Assembly: GCA_001516125.1 (NCBI GenBank) | Contig: LOEX01000132.1 | Location: 1-42,015, forward strand | Origin: Sphingomonadales bacterium BRH_c42 | Lineage (GTDB): Bacteria > Pseudomonadota > Alphaproteobacteria > Sphingomonadales > Sphingomonadaceae | Length of the DNA stretch: 42,015 nucleotides | Reading direction: 5' to 3' | In this document: piece after piece, positions 11,964 to 38,179 of the stretch | Layout: every line of letters begins with the position of its first letter | How positions within the stretch are numbered: the stretch's first letter is position 1 | Notes under the pieces: model-generated | Told to the model about the DNA's origin: nothing | Database searches by the model: none | What the model saw: only the letters and a program-made list of their open reading frames with translations | Position numbers and translations under genes: made by a program

Positions 11964-12419
11964 CTACGTCAGCTTGCGATCGAGCGGCGAGTGCAACGCC
12001 TTTTCCAATAGCTGCAACAATGTGACGCGTTCCTGTTCGGCCAGGGCCGCGAGCGCAACCTTGTCCGATTCGGCAAGCTTCGCCAGCATCACCGGCAGAT
12101 CGGCCTTGGCCTTGTCCGTCAGGTGCAGCGCATTGGTGCGCAGGTCGCGGCCCGGGCGGCGCTGGACCAGGCCATGTTCTTCGAGGACATTGACGAGCTT
12201 CATCGCGCTCGCGCGGTTGATCGACAGCGCGCGCGCAAGCGCCGATTGCCCGCAGCCCGGATTGGCCGCGATGAGCCCGAGGGCCGTCACTTTCGCGGGC
12301 GAAATCCTGAATTCGTCCAGCGCTTCGCGGGCCGCGTCATTGAGCCGCAAGCTCATCATTCTGGCCTGGTAGCCAATGAGGCCGTCCATCGCGGGATTGG
12401 AGCGCAGAACCTTCTTCAT
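11964..12419 (-). CDS. MarR family transcriptional regulator (MarR2)
   Basis: MKKVLRSNPAMDGLIGYQARMMSLRLNDAAREALDEFRISPAKVTALGLIAANPGCGQSALARALSINRASAMKLVNVLEEHGLVQRRPGRDLRTNALHLT; C-terminal part of ORF 11964..13835, the rest of which is antisense to ALDH. Confidence 0.85.
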   Translation of the reverse strand: MKKVLRSNPAMDGLIGYQARMMSLRLNDAAREALDEFRISPAKVTALGLIAANPGCGQSALARALSINRASAMKLVNVLEEHGLVQRRPGRDLRTNALHLTDKAKADLPVMLAKLAESDKVALAALAEQERVTLLQLLEKALHSPLDRKLT

Positions 12420-12429
12420 CTTGTCAAAT

Positions 12430-12448
12430 AAGTATGCCTGGGATACAT
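12430..12448. promoter_or_regulatory. GTAT-N7-ATAC operator, site A
   Basis: AAGTATGCCTGGGATACAT between MarR2 and ALDH. Confidence 0.6.
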
Positions 12449-18734: not shown

Positions 18735-19607
18735 CTAGCCATGCAGTTCATTGTAATCGACGATCCACCTGATCGTTCTGCCAATCCCGCCGAAGGGATA
18801 GAAATGCAGCCGCACCCGCCCATGTTCCTCGCCGAGATTGGCGGCATAGGCGTCAACCAGCCTGTCCGGCCCGGCGCTGCCGAGCAGATTGGTGATCGAC
18901 GCGCCATATTTCATCATGACGCTGGCAGATGCGCCAACGCCGCAGCGCGCGGCGAAGCGCAGTAATGTCTTGATCCCCGCAGGCCCCGGAATGCCGATGC
19001 GCACAGGCGTGTCGATCCCGCGCAGACGCGCTTCCTTGAGCCAGGCGAGGAAAGCGTCGGGGTCGAAACCGAACTGCGTCACCACCAGCGGCGCCATGCC
19101 GCGCCGCTCGATATCCGCCAGCTTGCATTCGAGCACGTCCCAGCATTGCTGACGCGACATCACCGGATGGCCTTCGGGGTGGCCGCCGACGCCGATCGCC
19201 TTGATACCTGCCCGCTCGAACGCTCCGGTTGCGATCAACGCGGAGGTGTCAAAGAACGGCCCCTGCGGTTCGGGCGGGTCACCCGCGACGATGAAACAGC
19301 GCCGCACCTCGGCCTCGCGCGCCACCGCCGCAAGATAGCTCTCAAATTCGTCGTGTGAGACGATCCGCCGCGCCGAAAAATGCGGCATCGGTTCGAAACC
19401 AAGCTCGCGCACAGCCACCGCCGCTGCGACGCGCGCGTGCGCTTCCTCGCCCGGTAGGAATGTGATCGCGACGGGCGTATCGGCGGGAATCAGCGGAGCC
19501 GCTTCGCGCAGCGCCGCGACATCTTTCGCCGTGATTTCGAGCGAATAGCCTTCGGTTATCCCGATCGGCGGGCGCGCCCAATTGGGGTGTATCAGCGGTG
19601 CGGCCAT
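18735..19607 (-). CDS. metF: Methylenetetrahydrofolate reductase (C1-catabolic paralog)
   Basis: YSLEITAKDVAALREAAPLIPADTPVAITFLPGEE...GVGGHPEGHPVMSRQQCWDVLECKLADI...VVTQFGFDPDAFLAWL...RIGIPGPAGIKTLLRFAARCGVGAS. Confidence 0.88.
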   Translation of the reverse strand: MAAPLIHPNWARPPIGITEGYSLEITAKDVAALREAAPLIPADTPVAITFLPGEEAHARVAAAVAVRELGFEPMPHFSARRIVSHDEFESYLAAVAREAEVRRCFIVAGDPPEPQGPFFDTSALIATGAFERAGIKAIGVGGHPEGHPVMSRQQCWDVLECKLADIERRGMAPLVVTQFGFDPDAFLAWLKEARLRGIDTPVRIGIPGPAGIKTLLRFAARCGVGASASVMMKYGASITNLLGSAGPDRLVDAYAANLGEEHGRVRLHFYPFGGIGRTIRWIVDYNELHG

Positions 19608-19636
19608 CCGGCCCTCCCCGTCAGAAAGGATCGGGA

Positions 19637-21998
<2,362 letters not shown>

Positions 21999-22009
<11 letters not shown>

Positions 22010-22739
22010 CTTCGCCCGGAATCGCCCCGATCAGCGCCGCCTCGAGATCGTGCGGACGCGACAGAAAGGGGGAATGGTCGGCATCGAGCGTGACCACATG
22101 CGCACCGGGAGACATCGCCTGCATCTTGCGCTGGCTGGCGATGGGGATGGTGCGATCTGCCGTGCATTCGACATATGTTCGCGGCAAGCTCCCCCAGCGT
22201 TCGGCGGTCAGCCGCAACTTTGTCGAGCGCGGACCATGCGGTTCGGCGACAAGCCGCGCCATCGCGCTTTCGACCAGCGCGGGCGGCGACAATTGCGCGA
22301 AGACGTTGCCCGCGCGCGAAGGGTCGACCACGGTCCCTGCGCCGTCATGCACTGCGGCGATGATCGCGTCGAAATTGGGGTTGGGCTCCTCCATCGCCTT
22401 GAAATCGGCGCGCGACACACCATCGGGCAGCATCATCGCGCAGATATAGACCAGTGCGTCGATGGCTTCGGGCGCGGTTTCAGCCGCCTGGCTCACGACC
22501 AGGCCGCCCCGGCTATGTCCGGCAAGGATCACCGGGCGCTGCGCCGCGCTGCGGCACAAGCTGACAGCGAAATCGGCCCACGCCTGTAAGGTTGCTGCGC
22601 GCAGCTCCGCCTCGTTGCCGCCCATGCCGGGTAGGTCGGGGGTGAGAACCTCGTGCCCTTCCGCTTCCAGCAAAGTGCGCACTTCATCAAAGCACCAGCC
22701 GCCGTGCCATGAACCATGAATCAGGACGAATGTAGCCAA
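21999..22739 (-). CDS. Alpha/beta hydrolase
   Basis: [17 protein letters not shown], nucleophile elbow GHSRGG, distal [12 protein letters not shown]. Confidence 0.88.
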
Positions 22740-22784
22740 GGTCTATCTTTCCGGTGTTTGAGTTTCGGTGGCCGGACGAATCAT

Positions 22785-23663
22785 TCAACCGAGACCCAGC
22801 AGTTTTGCCGCATTGTCCTTCATGATCGCCGGCAGCACATCGTCCCTGAAGCCGACAGCTTTGGCCGCCTCGATCCATTTCGCCGGGTGAATCAGCGGGA
22901 AATCGGAACCGAACAGCATCTTGTCGCGCAACTGGGTGTTGGCATACTGGATGATCTGCGGCGCGAAATACCTGGGGCTCCAGCCCGACAGGTCGATAAA
23001 CACATTTTCCTTGTGCAGCGCCATCGACAGGCTTTCATCCACCCACGGCCAACTGGGATGCGCGAGGATGATCTTCATGTCGGGGAAATCGACCGCGACA
23101 TCGTCGATCAGCATCGGGCGGCCCCATTTCAGCCGCACTCCGCCGCCGCCGCGCATCCCCGTGCCCATTCCCGAATGGCCGGTGTGAAAAATGGCGGGCA
23201 GGCGATGTTCGGCGATTACTTCATAGATCGGATAGGCGATTGGGTCGGAAGGGTCGATGTCCTGCATGATCGAGTGGAATTTGAACCCCCGCACGCCATG
23301 ATTTTCGACGAGGTCGCGCGCCTCGCGGGCGCCCAGCTTGCCCTTGCGCGGATCGATGCTGGCGAAGGGGATGCAGATATCGGCGTTCGCAGCCGCTATT
23401 TCCGCGATTTCGTAATTGGACACGCGCCGCGCGCCGAGGCTGCTCTCGCAGTCGACCGTGAACAGGCAGAACGCAATCTGCTGCTCACGATAAATTTCGA
23501 TTATTTCCGGGATCTTCGGCCGTTCGCGCGGGGCCTTGAAATAGGCGCTGGCAGCGTCGAAAAACCGGCCCATCACGGGGTCTTCGGGATCGTGGCATGA
23601 CACGTCGGCATGGACATGGACGTCAATCGCCCTGATCCTGGCGAGATCGATAGTCATGAGCAT
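22785..23663 (-). CDS. Amidohydrolase family protein (possible 4-hydroxyphenyl-beta-ketoacyl-CoA hydrolase-like)
   Basis: AIDVHVHADVSC, GFKFHSIMQDIDPSD, IFHTGHSG, KIILAHPSWPWVDE, LFGSDFPLIHPAKWIEA. Confidence 0.8.
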   Translation of the reverse strand: MLMTIDLARIRAIDVHVHADVSCHDPEDPVMGRFFDAASAYFKAPRERPKIPEIIEIYREQQIAFCLFTVDCESSLGARRVSNYEIAEIAAANADICIPFASIDPRKGKLGAREARDLVENHGVRGFKFHSIMQDIDPSDPIAYPIYEVIAEHRLPAIFHTGHSGMGTGMRGGGGVRLKWGRPMLIDDVAVDFPDMKIILAHPSWPWVDESLSMALHKENVFIDLSGWSPRYFAPQIIQYANTQLRDKMLFGSDFPLIHPAKWIEAAKAVGFRDDVLPAIMKDNAAKLLGLG

Positions 23664-23788
23664 GGCCCTCTCAAACCGGTGTTGGTCGGACCTGTCAAAT
23701 TGCTGCACGCCAGTCAACCGCAGACGCGAAGCGGAGTGTTGCGATTCAACGCTTGTCCCATTCCATAAGCATGGGCTAATTTAATGCG

Positions 23789-24934
23789 ATGGAGATATGG
23801 GCCTTCAACTTGCGCCACCTGGCAGCTTTCGCAGCCACAGTGCGGTTAGGTAGCCTCTCGGCGGCGGCGCAGGAAATCAGTTTGACGCAGCCCGCGGTGA
23901 CGCAGGCGTTGGCAAAGCTCGAGCGATTGATCGGTGAAACGATGTTCGAACGCAGCCAGGGCGGGATGGTCGCGACCGATGCGGCAAGGCTGTTCGCGCG
24001 GCGCGTAGAGGACGCGCTGCGCCATATCGCATCGCCGCGCGTCACGATGGCGCAAATGCGTGCGCTGATCGAACTGGCCGATGCCGGAAGCTATGCCGGG
24101 GCCAGCGCGGCAACGGGCCTGTCCCAACCGACGCTGCACCGCGCGGTCGGAGATCTTGCCATCGCGCTGCGCCGCGCTCTGGTCGAACGCAGGGGCAAGG
24201 GAGTTGCCATTACTCCAGGCGGGCGGCGGACGCTGCGCTCGTTCCGGCTGGCGCGGGCTGAGCTTTCTGCCGGATTGTCGGAAGTTTGCAGCCTGCGCGG
24301 CCGCGAAGTCGGTCGCATCACGATTGGAGCGATGCCGCTTTGCCGGGCCAGGCTGCTGCCGGCCGCCGTGATGGGATTTCACCGCGAATATCCCGGCGTG
24401 AAGATCCGGATCGTCGAGGGGTCGCACGCCGAATTGATAGAACCCTTGCGCGATGGCGACATCGACTTGTTGCTGGGCGCACTGCGCGAAGTGCCGCTGG
24501 GCGACGATGTCGAACAATGCAGATTGTTTGACGATCAGCCGGTCGTCCTTGCGCGCGCCGACCACCCGCTTGCCGGGGTGAGCCAGGTCGATATCAATGC
24601 GCTGTCTGCCTATTCGTGGACCATCTCGGCGCATGGCACGCCGCTGCGCACGCTTTGGGAAAAGATGTTCAGCCATAACTGCGTCGCGACTCCGCAGGTT
24701 CCGATCGAATGCGGATCGGTGATCACCATCCGCCAGATGTTGCTCGACAGCGACATGCTGACCATGCTGTCGCCGGACCAGGCGGTGCTCGAACTCGAGG
24801 CAGGCTGGCTCATCAAGATTGCCGCACCAACCCAAATGCTGCGGCGGACGATCGGCATGACTTCGCGCGCCAGGTGGCGACCGACCCCGGCACAAGCCCG
24901 CTTCGTCGAACTGCTTAAATCGTCGCTTAGCTAA
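23789..24934 (+). CDS. LysR family transcriptional regulator with two tandem HTH domains (LigR-like position)
   Basis: HTH1 NLRHLAAFAATVRLGSLSAAAQEISLTQPAVTQALAKLERLIGETMFER; HTH2 TMAQMRALIELADAGSYAGASAATGLSQPTLHRAVGDLAIALRRALVER; LysR effector domain follows. Confidence 0.88.
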   Translation: MEIWAFNLRHLAAFAATVRLGSLSAAAQEISLTQPAVTQALAKLERLIGETMFERSQGGMVATDAARLFARRVEDALRHIASPRVTMAQMRALIELADAGSYAGASAATGLSQPTLHRAVGDLAIALRRALVERRGKGVAITPGGRRTLRSFRLARAELSAGLSEVCSLRGREVGRITIGAMPLCRARLLPAAVMGFHREYPGVKIRIVEGSHAELIEPLRDGDIDLLLGALREVPLGDDVEQCRLFDDQPVVLARADHPLAGVSQVDINALSAYSWTISAHGTPLRTLWEKMFSHNCVATPQVPIECGSVITIRQMLLDSDMLTMLSPDQAVLELEAGWLIKIAAPTQMLRRTIGMTSRARWRPTPAQARFVELLKSSLS

Positions 24935-24955
24935 ATATTATAGCTGGATTGCTAA
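24927..24955. promoter_or_regulatory. Nested inverted repeats upstream of lig operon, candidate LysR site
   Basis: TTAGCTAAATATTATAGCTGGATTGCTAA: outer TTAGC/GCTAA, inner AGCTA-N7-TAGCT and TAGC-N6-GCTA. Confidence 0.5.
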
Positions 24956-24997
24956 TTCGATTTGCCGCCTGTTGTGCGGTGCCATAGTTCAAGTCGC

Positions 24998-25780
24998 ATG
25001 ATCGCGGCGACGACATTCATCGGCTTTGGGGAAGCGGGTTCGGCGTTCGCCGGTGCTATCTCGGCACCGCTGAACGCCTACGACAGCAAGACCGATGATC
25101 CGGCAACACGCGGCGCGATGCGCGCGGTCTTTGCTGATACCAGAGCGGCTGGCCACGACAGCGCCGCAGAGGCGCTTGCAGGGGCGCGGGCGGTGCTCAG
25201 CCTTGTGACAGCGTCAAGCGCCTTGCAGGCAGCAAGCGATTGCGCACGCTTCCTTGCGCCTGGCGCGCTGTGGATCGACATGAATTCGGTCGCGCCTGAC
25301 ACCAAACGCCGCGCTGCCGAGGTGATCGAGGCTGCTGGCGGGCGCTATGTCGATGCTGCCATCATGGCGCCGGTGCAGCCTGCAGTGCTGGCGGTCCCTG
25401 TGCTGCTTTCGGGTCCCCATGCAGACGATGCCGCCACGGTACTGAGCGTCCTGGGTTTTTCCAATATCCGCATTGTCGGCAGCGACGTCGGTCGCGCCTC
25501 GACCATCAAGATGCTCCGTTCGGTCATGGTCAAGGGCATCGAGGCGCTCACCGCCGAGATGGTACTGGCCGCCCGAAGTGCCGACGTTGCCGACGAGGTC
25601 CTGGCTTCACTGGGAGAGGATTGGCCGCAAAGGGCGGCATATAATCTCGAACGGATGGCCATGCATGGTCAGCGCCGGGCCGACGAAATGGAAGAGGTTG
25701 CGAAAACGCTGGAGGCGCTCGGCGTCGAACCCCTGATGACTCACGGCACAATCGTCCGCCAGAGGGGGTTGGCTCAATGA
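24998..25780 (+). CDS. NAD(P)-dependent oxidoreductase, 6PGDH/3-hydroxyisobutyrate dehydrogenase-like (DUF1932-type)
   Basis: TTFIGFGEAGSAFAGAI Rossmann motif, VDAAIMAPV, IVGSDVGRASTIKMLRSVMVKGIEALTAEMV; stop overlaps ligJ start. Confidence 0.8.
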   Translation: MIAATTFIGFGEAGSAFAGAISAPLNAYDSKTDDPATRGAMRAVFADTRAAGHDSAAEALAGARAVLSLVTASSALQAASDCARFLAPGALWIDMNSVAPDTKRRAAEVIEAAGGRYVDAAIMAPVQPAVLAVPVLLSGPHADDAATVLSVLGFSNIRIVGSDVGRASTIKMLRSVMVKGIEALTAEMVLAARSADVADEVLASLGEDWPQRAAYNLERMAMHGQRRADEMEEVAKTLEALGVEPLMTHGTIVRQRGLAQ

Positions 25781-26798
25781 CTTTGATCATCGATTGCCAT
25801 GGCCATTACACCACCGCGCCCGAAGCGCACAGCCTGTGGCGTGAGGAGCAGAAGGCAGCGTTCAAGGATGGACGCGATCCCCCGCCCTATCCCGACATTT
25901 CCGATGACGAAATCCGCCGGACGATCGAAGAAAACCAGCTCCGCCTGGTCCGCGAACGCGGCGCCGACCTGACGATCTTCTCGCCGCGCGCTTCGGCCAT
26001 GGCGCATCACGTCGGCGATCAGACGGTGAGCGCCGAATGGGCGCGGCATTGCAACAACCTCATCTACCGGGTCACGCAATTGTTCCCCGATAGCTTCGTC
26101 GGTGTGTGCATGCTGCCGCAATCGCCCGAGGCCGATCTGGCTGCGTCGGTGGCCGAGCTGGAGCGCTGCGTCACGCAGCTTGGATTTGTCGGTTGCAATC
26201 TCAACCCCGATCCTGGCGGCGGGCATTTCAAGCTGCCGCCGCTGACCGATCGCTACTGGTATCCGATATACGAGAAGATGGTCGAACTGGACGTGCCCGC
26301 GATGATCCACGTTTCGGGCAGCTGCAATCCCGGGCTGCATGCCACCGGCGCATTCTATATCGCCGCTGACACAATTGCCTTCATGCAACTGATCGAGGGC
26401 GATCTATTTGCCGATTTTCCCACGCTGCGTTTCATCATTCCGCACGGCGGAGGCGCTGTTCCCTATCACTGGGGCCGCTACCGGGGCCTCGCCGACATGC
26501 TGAAGAAGCCGGATCTGGCCGGGCACGTCATGAACAACGTCTATTTCGACACCTGCGTCTATCACCAGCCCGGCATCGACCTGCTGGCCGACGTGATCGA
26601 GACGAAGAACATCCTGTTCGGCAGCGAAATGGTGGGTGCGGTGCGCGGAATCGACCCGCAGACCGGGCATTATTTCGACGACACCAAGCGCTATGTCGAT
26701 GCGTTGGCGATCACCGCTGAGCAGCGCCATGCCATCTACGAAGGCAATGCAAGGCGTGTTTTTCCCCGCCTTGATACGCTGTTGAAGGAGAAGGGGTT

Positions 26799-26802
<4 letters not shown>
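25777..26802 (+). CDS. ligJ: 4-oxalomesaconate hydratase
   Basis: 341 aa amidohydrolase-superfamily protein MTLIIDCHGHYTTAPEAHSLWREEQ...SPRASAMAHHVGD, immediately upstream of ligAB. Confidence 0.92.
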
Positions 26803-28990
<2,188 letters not shown>

Positions 28991-28994
<4 letters not shown>

Positions 28995-30166
28995 CCATGC
29001 GTACGGATGTTGTCATCATCGGGGCAGGCCCGGCCGGTCTTCTGCTTGGCCATCTGCTGCGCGCCGAAGGGATCGCCTGCGTGGTGCTCGAGAGGCAAAC
29101 CCCCGATTATGTGCTGTCGCGCATTCGTGCCGGCGTGCTCGAAACGGTGGCGACCGACCTCATGACACGGCTTGGCCTGGACGCGCGCATGAATGCCGAA
29201 GGCCTGTGGCACAACGGCTTCAACCTGGCCGATGGCGAGCGGCTGGTGCGGATCGATCTTGCCGAACTTACCGGCCGCAAGGTGATGGTTTATGGGCAGA
29301 CCGAGATCACGCGCGATCTGATGGATGCGGCGCCCGGGCGCGGGCTTGAGGTCATCTATGAGGCGGAGGATGTCGCCCTACATGATATCGAGGGCGATGC
29401 GCCCTATATCACCTATTCCGCGGACGGCACGGGCCATCGTATCGACGCGCGCTTCATCTGCGGCTGCGACGGTTTCTACGGCCCCTCGCGCGCAGCGATA
29501 CCTGACAGTGTCGGCCGCCCGTTCGAACGGGTCTATCCCTTTGGCTGGCTGGGCATTCTGGCAGACGTTCCGCCGTGCAATCACGAGCTGATCTACACCA
29601 ATCATGAGCGCGGTTTTGCACTGGCATCGATGCGTTCTATGCAGCGCAGCCGCTATTATATCGACGTGCCGTTGACGGAAAAGATCGAGGATTGGCCTGA
29701 TGACCGCATCTGGGACGAACTGGCGATCCGCCTGGGGCCTGACGCCGCAGCAGGGATGACGCGCGGACCCTCGATCGAGAAAAGCATCGCGCCGCTGCGC
29801 TCGTTCGTGTTCGAGCCGATGCGTCACGGCAGCCTGATGCTGGCCGGCGACGCCGCGCATATTGTTCCGCCAACAGGCGCCAAGGGGCTCAACCTGGCTG
29901 CCTCTGACGTCCACTATCTGTGCGATGCCCTGACCGCCTATTTCCGGCACAATGACGCTGACGCGATTGCCGGTTATTCTGACAAGGCGTTGGCCCGCGT
30001 GTGGAAGTCCGAACGGTTTAGCTGGTCGCTGACCAATCTGATGCACCGCTTCCCCGACGATGGTCCGTTCGAGAGGCGGATGCAGGTTGCCGAGCTCGAC
30101 TATATCGCCTCGAGCCGCGCGGCGCAGATGGTGATAGCCGAAAACTATGTCGGCCTGCCGGTATGA
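28991..30166 (+). CDS. pobA: 4-hydroxybenzoate 3-monooxygenase
   Basis: TDVVIIGAGPAGLLLGHLLRAEGIACVVLERQTPDYVLSRIRAGVLE, FICGCDGFYGPSR, LAGDAAHIVPPTGAKGLNLAASDV. Confidence 0.95.
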
Positions 30167-30274
30167 CGGCAGAGCGGGCGACCGGGTCCTGACCATAATT
30201 GTGCATACCGTGACGCCCCCCGTTGCCCTTCCCTGCGCGAGATACTGCAAATAGGGGCTGGCGAGGTCCACTGA

Positions 30275-30301
30275 CATATTGTATGTAATACTTACAATAT
30301 G
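30275..30301. promoter_or_regulatory. GTAT-N7-ATAC-type operator, site C (27-bp near-perfect palindrome)
   Basis: CATATTGTATGTAATACTTACAATATG; only one mismatched pair (T/T). Confidence 0.75.
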
Positions 30302-30326
30302 TGGTTCTTGGGGATCTCGTGAAGGC

Positions 30327-31208
30327 ATGGCGAATATCATCGACGGGCGCGCCATGGCGGGGCGCCTGCTGGACAGTGTTGCAAACAATGTGTGCGAGCT
30401 GCGTGCCCGCCACGGCCTGCATCCCGCACTGGCGGTCGTGCTGATCGGCGATGATCCAGCCAGCGACATCTATGTCCGCAACAAGCTGAAGGCCTGCAAG
30501 AAGGTCGGCATTGCCTCGCGCGAGCACCGCTTGCCCGCGACTACTACCCAGCGTGACCTGATGGCGCTGGTCGACGCGCTCAATCGTGACGGCGATGTGC
30601 ACGGCATTCTGGTCCAGCTGCCGTTACCGAAACACCTCGATGCCCAGCCTGTCCTCGATGCTATCGCGCCGGAAAAGGACGTGGACGGTTTCCACCCGGT
30701 CAACGTCGGACGCCTGACGACTGCCGGCGGCGGCCTGGTTCCGTGCACTCCGCTCGGCTGCATGATGCTGCTGGATAGCGTGATCCCCGATTTTCGCGGG
30801 CTGGACGCCGTTGTCATCGGCAAATCGAACATCGTTGGCAAACCCGTGGCGCTGCTGCTGCTCGAACGCGAATGCACGGTGACGGTCACGCATATCGAAA
30901 CGCGGAACCTCGCCGATATCGTGCGCAAGGCCGATATTGTCGTCGTCGCGGCGGGGCATGCCGGGTTGGTGCGGGGGAGCTGGGTCAAGCCCGGTGCAAC
31001 CGTCATCGATGTCGGGATAAACCGGGTTGTCGATGCCTCGGGGAAAACCCGTATCGTCGGCGACACATGCTTTGGCGCGATGGACCATGCCGCCGCAGTC
31101 ACACCTGTGCCAGGCGGCGTCGGCCCGATGACGATTGCCTGTCTGATGGCCAACACTGCGCGTGCGGCGCAGATGGCGGCGATGGCGCGGGAATGTGAAT
31201 ATGGCTGA
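30327..31208 (+). CDS. folD: Methylenetetrahydrofolate dehydrogenase/methenyltetrahydrofolate cyclohydrolase
   Basis: [93 protein letters not shown]. Confidence 0.97.
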
Positions 31209-31560
31209 CACGCGCATCGTATCGCAGACCGTATCGGTCGACGATATCCGGGTCGAAGCCTTCATCGGAGTGCACGCGCATGAACGGCTGCATCGCCAGT
31301 CGCTCAACATATCCGTCAGGCTTACTATCGATCCGCCGCTGTCCGACGATCTTGCCGCGACGCTCGATTACAACCGGATCGTCGATGAATGCCGGGAGCT
31401 GGCGGATGAAGGCGTCGCGCTCATCGAGACGTTTGTGCATCGGCTGGCATACAGGTTGATCGGCTATGCCGGGGTTCGCCGCTCCGAGGTCCGCGTCGAA
31501 AAACGCGGCGCGCTGGCCAACGGCATGGCTGGAGCGGCGATCATGCTGGAACGTGGCTAG
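31201..31560 (+). CDS. folB: Dihydroneopterin aldolase
   Basis: [32 protein letters not shown]...[30 protein letters not shown]...[10 protein letters not shown]; start overlaps folD stop. Confidence 0.88.
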
Positions 31561-31632
31561 GGACTGATGCCATTACATAGACCTGCGGTGACGGACGCAG
31601 TGCCCTGGCCGACTCTTGCTCGACAGACGGAT

Positions 31633-31653
31633 ATTGTATGTTGTACCGACAAT
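31633..31653. promoter_or_regulatory. GTAT-N7-ATAC-type operator, site D
   Basis: ATTGTATGTTGTACCGACAAT, about 25 bp upstream of the marR start; 23-nt block ATATTGTATGTTGTACCGACAAT matches site C at 19 of 23 positions. Confidence 0.65.
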
Positions 31654-31677
31654 GACCGGCAATGCGTTGAGGCAGAA

Positions 31678-32151
31678 ATGAAAAGTGCACAAGAGACACT
31701 GGTGCCGACCACCCCGCATGTTGAGGGCGACGAGGACATCGGTGAAATCCGCAACATCGTGGGCTTTCATATCCGCCTGGCGCATGGCGCCGTCTATCGT
31801 CACTTTTCCGAGACGTTCGCCGCACTGGATTTGACGCAAAAGCAGGTTTCGGTGCTGTGGCTGGTCGACGATCATCCCAATATTGCCCAGACCGGACTCG
31901 CGCAGCGTATGCGGATGGACCGTGCGACCACGATGGCGATCATCAACCGGCTGGAGGGCCGCGGTCTTCTGGTCCGGGGCCGTTCGCCCGATGATGGGCG
32001 CAAGCAGACGCTCAATCTCACCGATTCCGGGCGCGCGATGCTCGGCACCGCCAAGGTGGCAATTGCCGAGCACGAAAATTGGCTGAAGGCGCGCTTCACC
32101 GATGCGGAAGTGGCGCACTTGATCGAGCTGCTCACCAGAATCCACGAATAG
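31678..32151 (+). CDS. MarR family transcriptional regulator, DesR-like by context
   Basis: LDLTQKQVSVLWLVDDHPNIAQTGLAQRMRMDRATTMAIINRLEGRGLLVRGRSPDDGRKQTLNLTDSGRAML. Confidence 0.88.
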   Translation: MKSAQETLVPTTPHVEGDEDIGEIRNIVGFHIRLAHGAVYRHFSETFAALDLTQKQVSVLWLVDDHPNIAQTGLAQRMRMDRATTMAIINRLEGRGLLVRGRSPDDGRKQTLNLTDSGRAMLGTAKVAIAEHENWLKARFTDAEVAHLIELLTRIHE

Positions 32152-32261
32152 CAAGAATGAATGGCGGCGCGCGATTCGCAATTAGGGCGCGCATGCAATT
32201 GGTGTAGCGATAGACGCTCGACTCGCGTGCGACGAGATCGATGTTTGGGGAGGGATGAGTG

Positions 32262-33578
32262 ATGGCAGGCGAGGCTATACGCCGCGATGCAAAATCCATT
32301 ATCGACGATGGACCGATGAACGCCTGGCAATGGGCGATCATCGCGGTCACCGTCGGGCTCAATGCGCTCGACGGATTCGATGTGCTGTCGATCAGCTTTG
32401 CCTCACCGGGGATTGCCAGCGAATGGCAGCTAGACAAGGCCACCTTGGGCTGGCTCCTGTCGATGGAACTGCTGGGCATGGCGTTAGGATCGGTCACGCT
32501 GGGCGGGGTTGCCGACAAGGCGGGGCGCAGACCCACGATATTGGGATGCCTGATCGCGATGACGGCGGGAATGTACGGTGCATCGCAAGCTGACGGGCTG
32601 ACTACATTGCTCAGTTGGCGGCTGCTGACCGGGCTTGGCATCGGCGGCATGCTGGCCGCCATAAATGCCGCGGCGGCAGAGTTTTCCAACATGCGCTGGC
32701 GCAATCTGGCGCTGGCTTTGATGGTCATCGGCTATCCCGTTGGCGGGGTTCTGGGCGGCCTGGCAGTGCAGCAATTGCTGGAAACGGGGACATGGCGTGA
32801 CGTGTTCGCTTTCGGCGCCGTGGCCACAGCCGTGTTCATCCCCATCGTATGGCTGATCGTACCTGAAAGCGTTGCCCTGCTTGACCGCAACCGGAAACCG
32901 CGCGCGCTCGAGCGGATCAACCGCACGCTTGCGCGCTTCGCCCTGCCGGCGGCGCAGGCTCTGAGCCTGGTCAGCGAAACCGAACCCAAGCGGTCGATCA
33001 TCGACATATTCCGGCCTGCGATGATCGCCACGACATTGCTCATCACCTTTGCCTATTTCGCGCATATCACCAGCTTCTATTTCATCCTGAAATGGGTGCC
33101 CAAGATTGTCGTCGACATGGGGTTCGAGGCAAAGCTGGCAGCCGGAGTGCTCACCTGGGCCAATGTCGGCGGGGCCACCGGCGGCGCGATATTCGGGTTG
33201 GCGGCCACGCGCGTGGGATTGCGCAAGCTGACCATCTTCACGCTGTTCGTTTCATCGGGCATGATCGTGTGGTTTGGCCGCGGGGCAGGCGATATTGTCA
33301 CGCTCTCGGCCATAGTGGCTATCGCGGGGCTGTTTACCAATTCGGCGGTCGTCGGCCTCTATTCGTTGTTCGCCAAGGTGTTTCCGACGCATGTTCGCGC
33401 GACCGGCACGGGCTTCGCCATTGGGGTCGGGCGCGGCGGCTCGGCATTGGCCCCGATACTCGCCGGTTATCTGTTCCAGGCCGGATTTGGCCTGCAATCC
33501 GTGGCGATCGTGATGGGCACTGGTTCGCTGCTCGCGGCGGCGGCACTGTTGATGCTCAAGGAACGCGCTGGCGATTGA
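32262..33578 (+). CDS. MFS transporter, aromatic acid:H+ symporter (PcaK/AAHS)-like
   Basis: LNALDGFDVLSISFASPGIASEW, LLGMALGSVTLGGVADKAGRRPTILG, FPTHVRATGTGFAIGVGRGGSALAPILAGYL. Confidence 0.88.
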   Translation: MAGEAIRRDAKSIIDDGPMNAWQWAIIAVTVGLNALDGFDVLSISFASPGIASEWQLDKATLGWLLSMELLGMALGSVTLGGVADKAGRRPTILGCLIAMTAGMYGASQADGLTTLLSWRLLTGLGIGGMLAAINAAAAEFSNMRWRNLALALMVIGYPVGGVLGGLAVQQLLETGTWRDVFAFGAVATAVFIPIVWLIVPESVALLDRNRKPRALERINRTLARFALPAAQALSLVSETEPKRSIIDIFRPAMIATTLLITFAYFAHITSFYFILKWVPKIVVDMGFEAKLAAGVLTWANVGGATGGAIFGLAATRVGLRKLTIFTLFVSSGMIVWFGRGAGDIVTLSAIVAIAGLFTNSAVVGLYSLFAKVFPTHVRATGTGFAIGVGRGGSALAPILAGYLFQAGFGLQSVAIVMGTGSLLAAAALLMLKERAGD

Positions 33579-33659
33579 GGGCTGGCGCCCGATGCGAAAA
33601 GGTGAAGCAATCCCGCCGCGTTCGCCGTTCCGCCGATAAGTCGATTACCGCAATGAAAT

Positions 33660-33689
33660 GGGGAGCGTGAAATCCGCTTCACGCTCCCC
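33660..33689. terminator. Intrinsic bidirectional terminator-like hairpin
   Basis: GGGGAGCGTGAA-ATCCGC-TTCACGCTCCCC, perfect 12-bp stem between convergent MFS and TBDR genes. Confidence 0.85.
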
Positions 33690-33730
33690 GTTCCAATTAT
33701 GCTCTTCGCACATCTCTGATGGTTGAGGCT

Positions 33731-36067
33731 CTAGAAGCGATGCCCCACCGTGACGCCATAGCTGCGCGGCGGCATCAGGGTTCCGCCGATGGCACGGCTG
33801 GTCGAGATCGAGAAGCTTCCCGAATAGACCAGCTCATCGGTCAGGTTCTTGCCCCACACATTGATGGTGAATGCCCGGTCAGGTGATTCATACAGGATGT
33901 TGGCATCGAGCATGATGTAGCCATCCTGCGACAGGCGGTCGTCGTTGAATTCGGTATGGAACTGCTTGCTTCTATAGGAGAAATTGCCGCCGAAGGTAAG
34001 CGAGCCGCCATTGTCCAGGTCCACCGTGTAAGCCGGGGCGAGATTGGTGCTCCAGTGCGGTGACATGCGCGTGGCATTGCCCGACAGGTCGAGGGCCGGC
34101 ACGCTATCCCCGCCCGGGCCGAACAGCGCCGGGTCGAGCGGATCGCGCGAGAAGAAGTCGGTGAACTCCGAATCGAGATAGGCGACCGTGGCATTGACGA
34201 CGAATGCCGGGGTTACCCGCCAACGAGCCTCAAGCTCGACGCCGTAAGCTTCCGATTGGGCAGCATTGGTCAGCGTGCTGGTGAAGAACGGAGGAGTCGG
34301 GATCGGACGTGTCAGGGAAAACTGCCCGTTCTTGAGCGTCTGGTAGAATGCAGCAAGGTTGAATTGCAGCGGTCCGCCCGATGTCTTGACGCCGACCTCG
34401 AATGCCTCGACCTTCTCCGGATCGACAAACGGCAACGGTTGCGTCAGCGAAAGGCGCCGGGTCGAACCGATTTCCGCGGTGCCGCTCTTGAAACCGCGCG
34501 ACCAGTTGGCAAAGAAGAGCAGGTCGGAATTCGGGCGGAATTCGAGCCCGAGCGAGGGCGAGAAGTCGTTCCATGACTTGCTCGCATCCCATTGCAGCGT
34601 ATCGAGAACGAGCATGTTGAGCGCTGCCGAACCCAGCCCGGTATTGTTGCGCAGTCGCCGCTCTTCCCAGCTGTAACGCGCCCCCGCCTTGATCGACAAT
34701 TGCTCGGACAGATCGAAGGTGAGATTGCCAAAGGCAGCCCATGTCTCGACATCCAGGCGGCCGTCAAACTGCACGCGGAACGGGTCGCTGTTGGTCAACA
34801 CATCGAAGCCGATGTGGTTTTCGACATTGATAGTTTCGTTGAGATAGAACAGTCCAAACACGCCGTGCAGCCGGTCGGTTTCAAGGTTCAGCTGGAGTTC
34901 CTCCGAAAACTGATGCTGGAACACTGGCTGCCAGTGGTTGGCGCTTTGTTGCAGCGCATTGGTTTGAGCCAGCGGAAACCCGAGATAAGACGACATGTCG
35001 AAATCGTGGAAGAAGATCGCTTCGAAATCACGGTAACTGGTCAGCGATTTGATGGTCAGCGCGTCGCCGGCCTCAAGCGTTACCAGCCCCGTCAGCGCCC
35101 ATTGATCGCGGTTGTTGATCGGGTCGAAATTGGTGCGCAGATTGCGCGGATTGCTGGAAAAACTGGCGGGCGAACCATCGGCGTTGGTGCGCTGGCCAAG
35201 CGCGCTCAGGCTGTCGTTTGCGGCAATGGCGTCATCCAGAACCCCGGGAAACGATACCTCGCGGAACTTGATCGCGTAGGAGCGATCGTCTTCGCTGTGA
35301 TATTCTCCGGTCAGCAGGATCGAGAGCGTCTCGGTCGGCAGGAATTCCAGATGTGCACGGGTGGAAAACTGATTGGCATTGTCGATGTCGTTGCCGGTCA
35401 ATTCGTTGATGCCATAGCCATCGCGCTTGACCGCCCGGAACGCCAGGCGCCCACGGATCTTTTCGGTCAGAGGCCCGCCTACGGCCGCCTCGCCAACCAG
35501 GTTGAGGTCGGGACCGCCAACGGTCAGGCGAGCATAGCCTTGGATTTCATCGGTAGGCTTGGCGGTAATCAGGTTGACCGCGCCGCCGGTCGCATTGCGC
35601 CCGTAAAGCGTGCCCTGCGGCCCGCGCAGCACCTCGACGCGCTCAAGGTCGAACATCGAGCCAAGCTGGGCCTGCGCCAGCGATACAACGGCTCCGTCGA
35701 CATGGAGTGCGACCGAAGGGTCAACGCCGGGCAGCGAGCTGTTGAGGCCGATACCGCGGATAAACAGCTTGGCGAAATTGAAGTCATTGCCGAAGCTGAT
35801 CGTCGGCACCAGATTTTGCAGCGATTCGATGCCGGCCGTATTCGAACTGGCGAGCGTTTCGGCGCCGACCGCTGAAACCGACAGCGAAACGTCCGATAGC
35901 GACTGGGCGCGTTTCTGTGCGGTAACGACGATCTCGGATTCAGTCTCGGTTTCGGCATCTGCATCGGCGCCCTGCGCCAGCGCCGGCGAGCCAATGCCCA
36001 GCAGTGCCAGTGCGGATACGCCCCACAGCGATCCCTTGAACGACTTCGTGTTGCTTAAGCTTTTCAT
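33731..36067 (-). CDS. TonB-dependent receptor
   Basis: EIVVTAQKRAQSLSDVSLSVSAVGAETLASSNTAGIESLQNLVPTISFGNDFNFAKLFIRGIG, LERVEVLRGPQGTLYGRNATGGAVNLIT; C-terminal VTVGHRF; start at ATG 36067. Confidence 0.94.
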   Translation of the reverse strand: MKSLSNTKSFKGSLWGVSALALLGIGSPALAQGADADAETETESEIVVTAQKRAQSLSDVSLSVSAVGAETLASSNTAGIESLQNLVPTISFGNDFNFAKLFIRGIGLNSSLPGVDPSVALHVDGAVVSLAQAQLGSMFDLERVEVLRGPQGTLYGRNATGGAVNLITAKPTDEIQGYARLTVGGPDLNLVGEAAVGGPLTEKIRGRLAFRAVKRDGYGINELTGNDIDNANQFSTRAHLEFLPTETLSILLTGEYHSEDDRSYAIKFREVSFPGVLDDAIAANDSLSALGQRTNADGSPASFSSNPRNLRTNFDPINNRDQWALTGLVTLEAGDALTIKSLTSYRDFEAIFFHDFDMSSYLGFPLAQTNALQQSANHWQPVFQHQFSEELQLNLETDRLHGVFGLFYLNETINVENHIGFDVLTNSDPFRVQFDGRLDVETWAAFGNLTFDLSEQLSIKAGARYSWEERRLRNNTGLGSAALNMLVLDTLQWDASKSWNDFSPSLGLEFRPNSDLLFFANWSRGFKSGTAEIGSTRRLSLTQPLPFVDPEKVEAFEVGVKTSGGPLQFNLAAFYQTLKNGQFSLTRPIPTPPFFTSTLTNAAQSEAYGVELEARWRVTPAFVVNATVAYLDSEFTDFFSRDPLDPALFGPGGDSVPALDLSGNATRMSPHWSTNLAPAYTVDLDNGGSLTFGGNFSYRSKQFHTEFNDDRLSQDGYIMLDANILYESPDRAFTINVWGKNLTDELVYSGSFSISTSRAIGGTLMPPRSYGVTVGHRF

Positions 36068-36407
36068 GATATTCCTCCCCGTTGTGCCGCATTCTTCCAC
36101 GTCCCAATGCGTGGAGCTGCGCGCTACGTTTCCCTCATTCGACCACTATAAGACCCGGTCCAAAACCGGAAATTGGAATCGCGACCGAGGCATAAGATGT
36201 ATCTAATTCATATTTTCGCATTTCGGTTCGCTCCTGAATGGGCCGAGTCCTGCGGGGTCGCGCCGGTCATGCCCGGAATGTCGGCCTTGCGCGATCCGGC
36301 CGGGTCCCGGAAATTTGGCCCAAGCAGGATCGCCGCCTGTCGTATCGGCCCGAATTGCCACGGGAAAGAAACGCGCCCGTCCGGGCCAGCAAGCCAGATT
36401 TCGTGCG

Positions 36408-37826
36408 TCAGGCCGCATCTGAGTTGCCGGAAATTGCTTTGGTGCGCCAACTGTCCGCATAAATAGTGCGCGCGACTTCCGAATAGGGCGCGGGCGAAAC
36501 GACAGCCCTGATCTTGACCTGTCGGTGCGGCTCAACCGTTGGCTTGGAAGTGCCGCCATCCGGTTCGCCCCACACCAGATCGACTTCGGTTCCTGGTACT
36601 GCAAGCGCTTCGTCGACCATGGCCAGGCTAAGCATCCGTCCTTCGTTGGCGCTATATCCGATCCATGTTGACAGGCCGACCAAGGCTCCTTCGACCTCGA
36701 CCCGGTCGAAGGGATGCATGGCGTAAACGGCGCTGGGAAATTCGATATATTTCGGGCGCAGGCCGGTTTTTTCGAATTGACCGTAGATTGCGTCGGTCAC
36801 CGATGCGCTGTCGAGCGCCAGCGTCACCTTTTTGCGGTGCGGACCTTGCGCCATCTTCTCCAGCGCACCGCGGCCGATGAACTCGTGGTCGAATTTGACG
36901 AAGAGGCCATACCCCAGGTCCCAGGGCGACAGATAATAGCCTTCGATGCTTTCCGGGACGTAGCTGCCGCCAATCGAAGCGCGTGCTTCATAGTGGTTTA
37001 CGGTCAACCATTCGCGATAAGGCTTCATCGCCTCGCCCGTGTAGATTGCGGGAAGCGGCGATGGAATCCATCCGCTTTCGAGCGTGTTCGATGAATAGGT
37101 TCGCCCGCCGACCAGCGCCATGCCATGCGCGCGTCCCGCCTCTACCAGCGCGCTGTGCACCGCATCGCAATCTTCCCATGGCCCCATCAGCTCATAGCCC
37201 GGCTGGCCCGCCATTCCGTGGCGTAGCGCGTGAACGCGTTTTCCGCCGATGGTCATCCAGCACATGTGGAAGAACTTGAGATCCGGCGCGGGAGCACCGG
37301 TTGCATCGGCGATAACCTTGGCGGCGTTCGGCCCCTGCACCTGAAACCGGTAGTGGCGCCTGTTCCCGGGATCGGGGCGGGCTGCGGTACGCTCGTCATA
37401 AGTGACTTTGACGTCACCGCGCCCTTCGGCGTGGAACATCAGCCAGTTGAGCGTGGGCGCGCGCCCGACCAGATTGAATTTCTGGTCAGCCAGGTAGAAC
37501 AGGATGACGTCGCCGATGACATAGCCATCGTGGCTGACCGGGACGAATTGCTTGGCGCGGTCGGGAACGAAGCCCTTGAAGCTGTTGATGCCCAGGCCGT
37601 TGAGGAATTCGAGCGCCCCGGGGCCTTCGACCATGAGTTCGGCCATGTGATAGCTCTGGTTGAACAGCACGCAGGTGTTCGCCCAGGCGCGTTGCTCGCT
37701 GCGCCAGTTGGAAAACTCGGCCGGGACGCCGGGGTAGACATTAGGCCCAACCTGCTGATTGCGCAGCATGGTCACAACGTCGCCGACTTCGTTCAATTTC
37801 GCTTCGAGCGATGCAGCTTTGCCCAT
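36408..37826 (-). CDS. Tetrahydrofolate-dependent aromatic O-demethylase (LigM/DesA family; GcvT-like), paralog 2
   Basis: 472 aa, [76 protein letters not shown]..., strongly similar end to end to ORF 19637..21037; start MGKAAS at 37826 after GGGAGAGG. Confidence 0.87.
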   Translation of the reverse strand: MGKAASLEAKLNEVGDVVTMLRNQQVGPNVYPGVPAEFSNWRSEQRAWANTCVLFNQSYHMAELMVEGPGALEFLNGLGINSFKGFVPDRAKQFVPVSHDGYVIGDVILFYLADQKFNLVGRAPTLNWLMFHAEGRGDVKVTYDERTAARPDPGNRRHYRFQVQGPNAAKVIADATGAPAPDLKFFHMCWMTIGGKRVHALRHGMAGQPGYELMGPWEDCDAVHSALVEAGRAHGMALVGGRTYSSNTLESGWIPSPLPAIYTGEAMKPYREWLTVNHYEARASIGGSYVPESIEGYYLSPWDLGYGLFVKFDHEFIGRGALEKMAQGPHRKKVTLALDSASVTDAIYGQFEKTGLRPKYIEFPSAVYAMHPFDRVEVEGALVGLSTWIGYSANEGRMLSLAMVDEALAVPGTEVDLVWGEPDGGTSKPTVEPHRQVKIRAVVSPAPYSEVARTIYADSWRTKAISGNSDAA

Positions 37827-37908
37827 GATGGCCTCTCCCAAACACATGCCCGCGGCCTGCGTGATGGCTGCGGAGAATCGGTAATTGATTACCTGATCCG
37901 GCCGATAG

Positions 37909-37929
37909 TTCGTATGTCAGGCATACGAA
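37909..37929. promoter_or_regulatory. GTAT-N7-ATAC operator, site E1
   Basis: TTCGTATGTCAGGCATACGAA: perfect 8-bp arms, 5-bp spacer. Confidence 0.75.
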
Positions 37930-37942
37930 TGTCAAGCGTATA

Positions 37943-37961
37943 TTGTATTCGAGGCATACAC
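37943..37961. promoter_or_regulatory. GTAT-N7-ATAC operator, site E2
   Basis: TTGTATTCGAGGCATACAC: TGTAT-N7-ATACA; centre 33 bp from site E1. Confidence 0.65.
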
Positions 37962-38103
37962 TCCTGCTCGGGCCTTGCCGCAGCGACGCCATGTTTTCGG
38001 GGATTCTGCGCTGCACGGCGCGCGGTTGTGGCCAAGCCCGGGCGTTGTCACCGTGCTGCAATCGGGTCAGGCCTTGCGGATGCGCGGGGATAGCGGAACG
38101 TGG

Positions 38104-38179
38104 TGGTGAGCCCTGCGCGGCTCGAACGCGCGACCTACTGATTAAAAGTCAGTTGCTCTACCGACTGAGCTAAGGGCCC
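38104..38179 (-). tRNA. tRNA-Lys (TTT)
   Basis: GGGCCCTTAGCTCAGTCGGTAGAGCAACTGACTTTTAATCAGTAGGTCGCGCGTTCGAGCCGCGCAGGGCTCACCA folds as a 76-nt cloverleaf with encoded CCA. Confidence 0.97.

Follow-up and report, generated by a model that had tools for sequence, protein, structure and literature searches.

Introduction

In Sphingobium SYK-6, the MarR-family repressor DesR needs three inverted repeats, IR-B, IR-M and IR-R, as determined by EMSA with mutated probes, and its binding is inhibited by vanillate and syringate (PMC6888825). The published sites are GTTTGTGTAACATAC (ligM), GTTTGTGTCACATAC (desB) and GTATGCTACGCTTAC (desR; IR-R), and the SYK-6 desA gene is left unbound by DesR (PMC6888825); as cited in PMC10046596 and PMC10866074, desA is under the control of DesX, an IclR repressor. 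The 10-formyl-THF synthetase LigH is encoded in the SYK-6 ligM operon. In Novosphingobium aromaticivorans, Saro_0803 has been described as a resveratrol sensor of a single promoter, nov1 (lsdD) (PMC10046596), and Saro_0802 is LsdD (PMC11323797).

Here we compare with these systems a stretch of 42,015 nt from Sphingomonadales bacterium BRH_c42 (contig LOEX01000132.1, positions 1 to 42,015; hereafter the window), and find the known repressor-operator system with three lineage-specific target changes (desA, purU and folD), a known regulon that has been rewired and for which binding and induction are predicted from sequence. No report of DesR controlling purU, folD or desA was found in the literature searched, many subscription papers being outside its reach.

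Five intergenic palindromes

A first-pass annotation of the window had listed six palindromic sites, A, B, C, D, E1 and E2, as operators of one O-demethylation/C1-folate regulon. The pattern TTGTATG-N5-CATACAA with up to three mismatches occurred at exactly five places in the window, which are sites B, C, D, E1 and E2 with the positions and sequences first given for them, against 0.38 expected by chance and a maximum of two in 100 shuffles. Each lies in an intergenic region, about 30-120 bp ahead of a start codon, and together they span no more than 17 kb (coordinates are given without strand). Site B (TTTGTATGCAACACAAACAAA; 21097..21117, palindrome 21098-21116; matrix score 29.0, p=1.8e-10 per site) lies between the divergent ligM-metF and purU genes, 60-80 bp ahead of ligM, with metF 3' of ligM. 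Site C (ATTGTATGTAATACTTACAAT; box 30278-30298 in the element 30275..30301, palindrome 30279-30297; 33.6, p=2e-12) lies upstream of folD-folB, is the best-scoring site and forms part of a longer 25-bp palindrome, ATATTGTATGTAATACTTACAATAT. Site D (ATTGTATGTTGTACCGACAAT; 31633..31653, palindrome 31634-31652; 23.8, p=6.7e-9) sits in the desR leader, and upstream of desA stand site E1 (TTCGTATGTCAGGCATACGAA; 37909..37929, palindrome 37910-37928; 18.7, p=1.2e-7), whose core is a perfect GTATG-N5-CATAC, and, 33 bp from it, site E2 (37942..37962, palindrome 37943-37961; 16.7, p=3.3e-7).

The scores come from a 21-bp symmetric matrix built from the desR leaders of other genomes (24 sites), with the window excluded. 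This matrix placed the same five sites at the top (per-site p of 2e-12 for C to about 3e-7 for E2), and left site A at rank 10. Column-permuted palindromic matrices gave a mean of 0.08 matches in the window at the same threshold and never reached five in 2000 tries; in 2.35 Mb of related loci, the true matrix gave 214 matches at scores of at least 18 vs. a mean of one for permuted matrices. A genome-wide check, as proposed at the outset, was carried out as a pattern search, the matrix scan being applied to the window and the related loci. All five places with at most two mismatches in the assembly were sites B, C, D, E1 and E2; another five, outside the window, matched only at three mismatches, and no box with at most two mismatches was found outside the window in the 2.19-Mb assembly (147 contigs), which is 78% complete and from which additional boxes or a DesX gene could therefore be absent.

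Could the repeats be chance AT-rich palindromes, or promoter elements, and no regulator sites at all? A promoter-like element, CTGACA-N16-TACAAT (30271-30298; 10/12 match), has its spacer and -10 covered by the folD box (site C), and such an overlap with a -10-like TACAAT is what this explanation would have in its favour; at sites B, D, E1 and E2, inspection revealed no clear sigma-70-like promoter for the downstream gene. Set against the excess of five sites over 0.38 expected, the lack of a further match with at most two mismatches in 2.19 Mb and the conserved position of the box at more than 100 loci (below), we regard this explanation as having a negligible chance of being right.

Weak matrix matches at 2252 and 30369 were excluded (E of 0.2-0.4 in the window, both inside predicted genes), and a single further degenerate match in the genome, at 16168 of contig 131, scored 9.0, under the boxes. 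A matrix made solely from the three SYK-6 sites put B, E1, C and E2 first, but it had a high shuffle background and was set aside as too small. In the window's own genome, the looser class GTWWG-N5-CWWAC occurs four times per strand vs. 27 for a reversed control pattern; this rarity outside the window may be due merely to the scarcity of TA steps.

The remaining site of the original six, site A (12430..12448), does not hold up as a DesR box. Its 15-bp core differs at one base and the TTGT/ACAA flanks are missing, and cores with at most two mismatches are little enriched in the window (13 matches vs. 8.1 expected from shuffles); its matrix score of 2.8 gives rank 10, with about four equal scores expected by chance in the window (E about 4), and this rules it out. 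A second MarR gene, MarR2 (11964-12419), could in principle share the operator, so that two MarR proteins co-regulate the set with site A included, and site A, with its one-mismatch core, does lie in the MarR2/aldehyde dehydrogenase intergenic region. That arrangement is very improbable: site A is at chance under the DesR matrix, MarR2 scores 54.8 bits vs. a cutoff of 200 on the Saro_0803/DesR family, and no MarR2 counterpart was seen in related loci. The MarR2/aldehyde dehydrogenase pair, at first counted among the possible regulon members, is accordingly dropped.

The regulator and its operator

The MarR-family gene at 31678..32151 (+) encodes a protein above the cutoff of the Saro_0803 family (NF053777, 240.9 bits, cutoff 200) and 65-66% identical to SYK-6 DesR (SLG_12870; the protein of genome G146). 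In G146 it has a single match at E<=1e-25, adjoining the published site IR-R, and the published IR-B and IR-M occur once each, IR-M directly before ligM; since all three repeats are present and so placed, we infer that G146 is Sphingobium SYK-6 and its MarR DesR. Reversed, site B equals the SYK-6 ligM site IR-M at 13/15 bases, and by sequence the window motif is the published operator of SYK-6 DesR, of the same type in both (GTATG-N5-CWTAC flanked by TTGT/ACAA). As in SYK-6, an orthologous MarR repressor has ligM-metF and its own gene as predicted targets.

Among 251 sampled genomes of the family, DesR and LigM (orthologs called at >=69% identity for LigM) occur together in 37, DesR alone in two, LigM alone in two and neither in 210 (each protein in 39/251; Fisher p=2e-39, from counts that are not phylogenetically independent). 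A box with a score of at least 12 precedes ligM in 104/112 distinct loci, usually 45-120 bp before the start, and an equivalent box lies ahead of most desR orthologs; in several genomes without a desR-leader box, desR stands 3' of ligM. The operator sequence, the orthology of the proteins and the presence of the box at more than 100 loci thus support the initial proposal that the MarR at 31678, with a site in its own leader, is the local DesR. LigM, DesA and DesR orthologs are missing from four sampled genus-mates; therefore the cluster (18735-37962) was either gained by the window's lineage or lost in these genus-mates.

The window protein also falls in with Saro_0803 (PMC10046596), above the NF053777 cutoff as noted: the four aromatic pocket residues reported to bind resveratrol in Saro_0803, F30, F43, F47 and W61, are shared by the window protein and SYK-6 DesR without change, and so are the DNA-contact residues K55, D106 and R108. 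In 37 relatives, including SYK-6, an RPE65-type (lignostilbene/NOV1-like) oxygenase gene diverges from desR across one box (e.g. L166:8920-10386), which is the layout of saro_0803 and nov1/lsdD. Because these residues are identical and the oxygenase arrangement is the same, DesR and Saro_0803 are most likely orthologs, N. aromaticivorans being compared by its reported residues and gene layout. Unlike saro_0803, the window desR has no adjoining stilbene oxygenase gene, and folD-folB stands in that place. The literatures on a vanillate/syringate repressor and on a 'resveratrol sensor' would thereby concern a single ortholog group whose pocket residues are the same, a point of interest for biosensor use and for the engineering of lignin conversion.

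Targets in C1 metabolism

The regulon sites first predicted at ligM-metF/purU, at folD-folB and at a second O-demethylase gene (here desA) were all recovered as boxes. New relative to that prediction are that desA, unlike in SYK-6, appears to be under DesR, that purU appears to replace LigH, and that the boxed folD is, from its placement on the tree, an accessory copy.

The vanillate/3-O-methylgallate O-demethylase gene ligM (19637..21037, -; NF047885, 901 bits) is followed downstream by a metF-like gene (18735..19607, -; PF02219, 36 bits), whose product is 50% identical to the MetF of the SYK-6 ligM operon. The protein is divergent (39 bits vs. an equivalog cutoff of 294) and is perhaps a form specialised for methyl-THF oxidation. 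Such a MetF-like protein is commonly encoded beside ligM, although it is far from standard MTHFR.

Across site B lies a gene for a PurU-like formyltetrahydrofolate deformylase with ACT and formyl transferase domains (21149..22009, +; PF00551, PF01842); SYK-6 has ligH instead. In the window and in many relatives, ligM and a divergent purU have this box in common (52 loci in the cluster analysis; 70 of the 122 loci whose upstream sequence was long enough, counted without de-duplication). Among the 35 genomes whose ligM locus was readable, nine have purU at ligM, 22 have a gene for a 10-formyl-THF synthetase of the LigH type, four have neither and none has both (Fisher p=1e-5, uncorrected for kinship). 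As purU at ligM and the synthetase gene never coexist in these genomes, and LigH belongs to the SYK-6 ligM operon, PurU looks like an alternative exit for formyl-THF.

Downstream of site C, folD (30327..31208, +; PF02882/PF00763) overlaps a folB-like gene (31201..31560, +; TIGR00526, 52.6 bits, cutoff 45). This FolD falls outside the housekeeping FolD clade, which includes the copies of two genus-mates, and two FolDs are found in most of the DesR genomes examined. Boxed accessory folD genes also occur in G002, G052, G030 and L043, and no box was seen before folD among the housekeeping copies examined. The distribution of the folD box needs at least three changes on the tree, from which accessory folD copies are seen to have gained boxes repeatedly. 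The box of the window also covers the spacer and -10 of its promoter-like element, like the Saro_0803 site at nov1, so steric repression would be the simplest reading there.

The desA boxes

In SYK-6, desA lies outside the DesR regulon; our scan found no box at the SYK-6 gene, in agreement with the published absence of DesR binding. This is not so in the window, where two boxes precede desA, the syringate O-demethylase gene (36408..37826, -; NF047633, 838 bits, cutoff 800). Boxes are present at 5/38 desA genes (those of the window, G237, G002, G113 and G030), and the two nearest relatives of the window gene carry boxes scoring 25.6 and 30.3. The IclR gene next to desA in SYK-6 was taken to be DesX, and homologs of it were detected in 31/33 box-less genomes and also in G113 and G030; none was detected in the window's assembly (78% complete) or in G237 and G002 (both 100% complete).

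One might suppose that DesR reads B, C and D while E1 and E2 are read by an unrecognised IclR or MarR protein with a similar palindrome, leaving desA as in SYK-6, where DesR does not bind it. E1 and E2 are indeed the lowest-scoring of the five boxes, deviating at TTCG and in one half-site. The perfect core of E1, the strong boxes of the nearest two desA genes and the lack of a detected DesX homolog in the window's assembly and two complete neighbours all speak against such a split, which we hold to be unlikely, and we retain DesR as the probable reader of E1 and E2.

The boxed genes fall into two groups on the DesA tree, {window, G237, G002} and {G113, G030}, and the AU test speaks against a desA box that arose once (p=0.02, on a quick DesA tree). 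The association between desA box and DesX is suggestive at most, its Fisher p of 0.011 being nominal, since the DesA tree offers only two independent pairs. The DesX system of SYK-6, in the cited accounts, has the same target gene under a different repressor family, and we lean towards the view that control of the syringate O-demethylase passed from DesX (IclR) to DesR (MarR), both coexisting in the G113/G030 lineage and DesR alone remaining in that of the window, to give a methyl-to-formate circuit at one locus under one repressor, in which PurU takes the place of LigH and folD is a dedicated copy. SYK-6 has ligM, desA and desB at scattered loci, whereas the window sites fall within their 17 kb, and no desB target was seen in the box scan of this 78%-complete assembly. 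A tRNA-Lys gene (TTT; 38104-38179) upstream of the desA boxes is a possible integration landmark.

A predicted methyl-disposal circuit

O-demethylation of lignin aromatics consumes one tetrahydrofolate (THF) per methyl group; therefore folate recycling has to keep pace with demethylation. On the established sites, orthology, operator identity, conservation and gene content we base the following prediction of DesR binding and repression, of the inducer and of the direction of flux in this organism. Without inducer, a DesR dimer on the boxes would repress ligM-metF and purU (B), folD-folB (C), desR (D) and desA (E1/E2), and a methoxy-aromatic acid (vanillate or syringate in SYK-6) would release it. 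LigM and DesA would then transfer the O-methyl group to THF, MetF and FolD would oxidise the methyl-THF carbon to formyl-THF, and PurU would hydrolyse this to formate and free THF, which would resupply O-demethylation, a stoichiometric consumer of THF; the direction toward formate is deduced from known enzyme chemistry and the SYK-6 discussion. That the five palindromes are DesR operators, repressing these genes until a methoxy-aromatic acid releases them and so forming a methyl-disposal circuit, is in our judgement highly probable. The arrangement suggests that one repressor couples both processes, its operator being set before whichever C1-disposal genes a lineage has of its own (either LigH-type or PurU, and either the housekeeping folD or an additional one).

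Strong boxes in relatives also precede genes for an SDR, an MFS protein, a TonB receptor, an aldehyde dehydrogenase, a PQQ dehydrogenase, a ThDP-enzyme and LigA (L046:15163, L048:15324, L089:3191, L048:3159, L059:2434, L163:7846 and L071:2671), which suggests a wider DesR regulon. In the SYK-6-like genome G146, two more candidate boxes (L140:1498-1518 and L128:1498-1518, scores 14.0 and 15.2) lie at genome positions 4067460 and 1305126.
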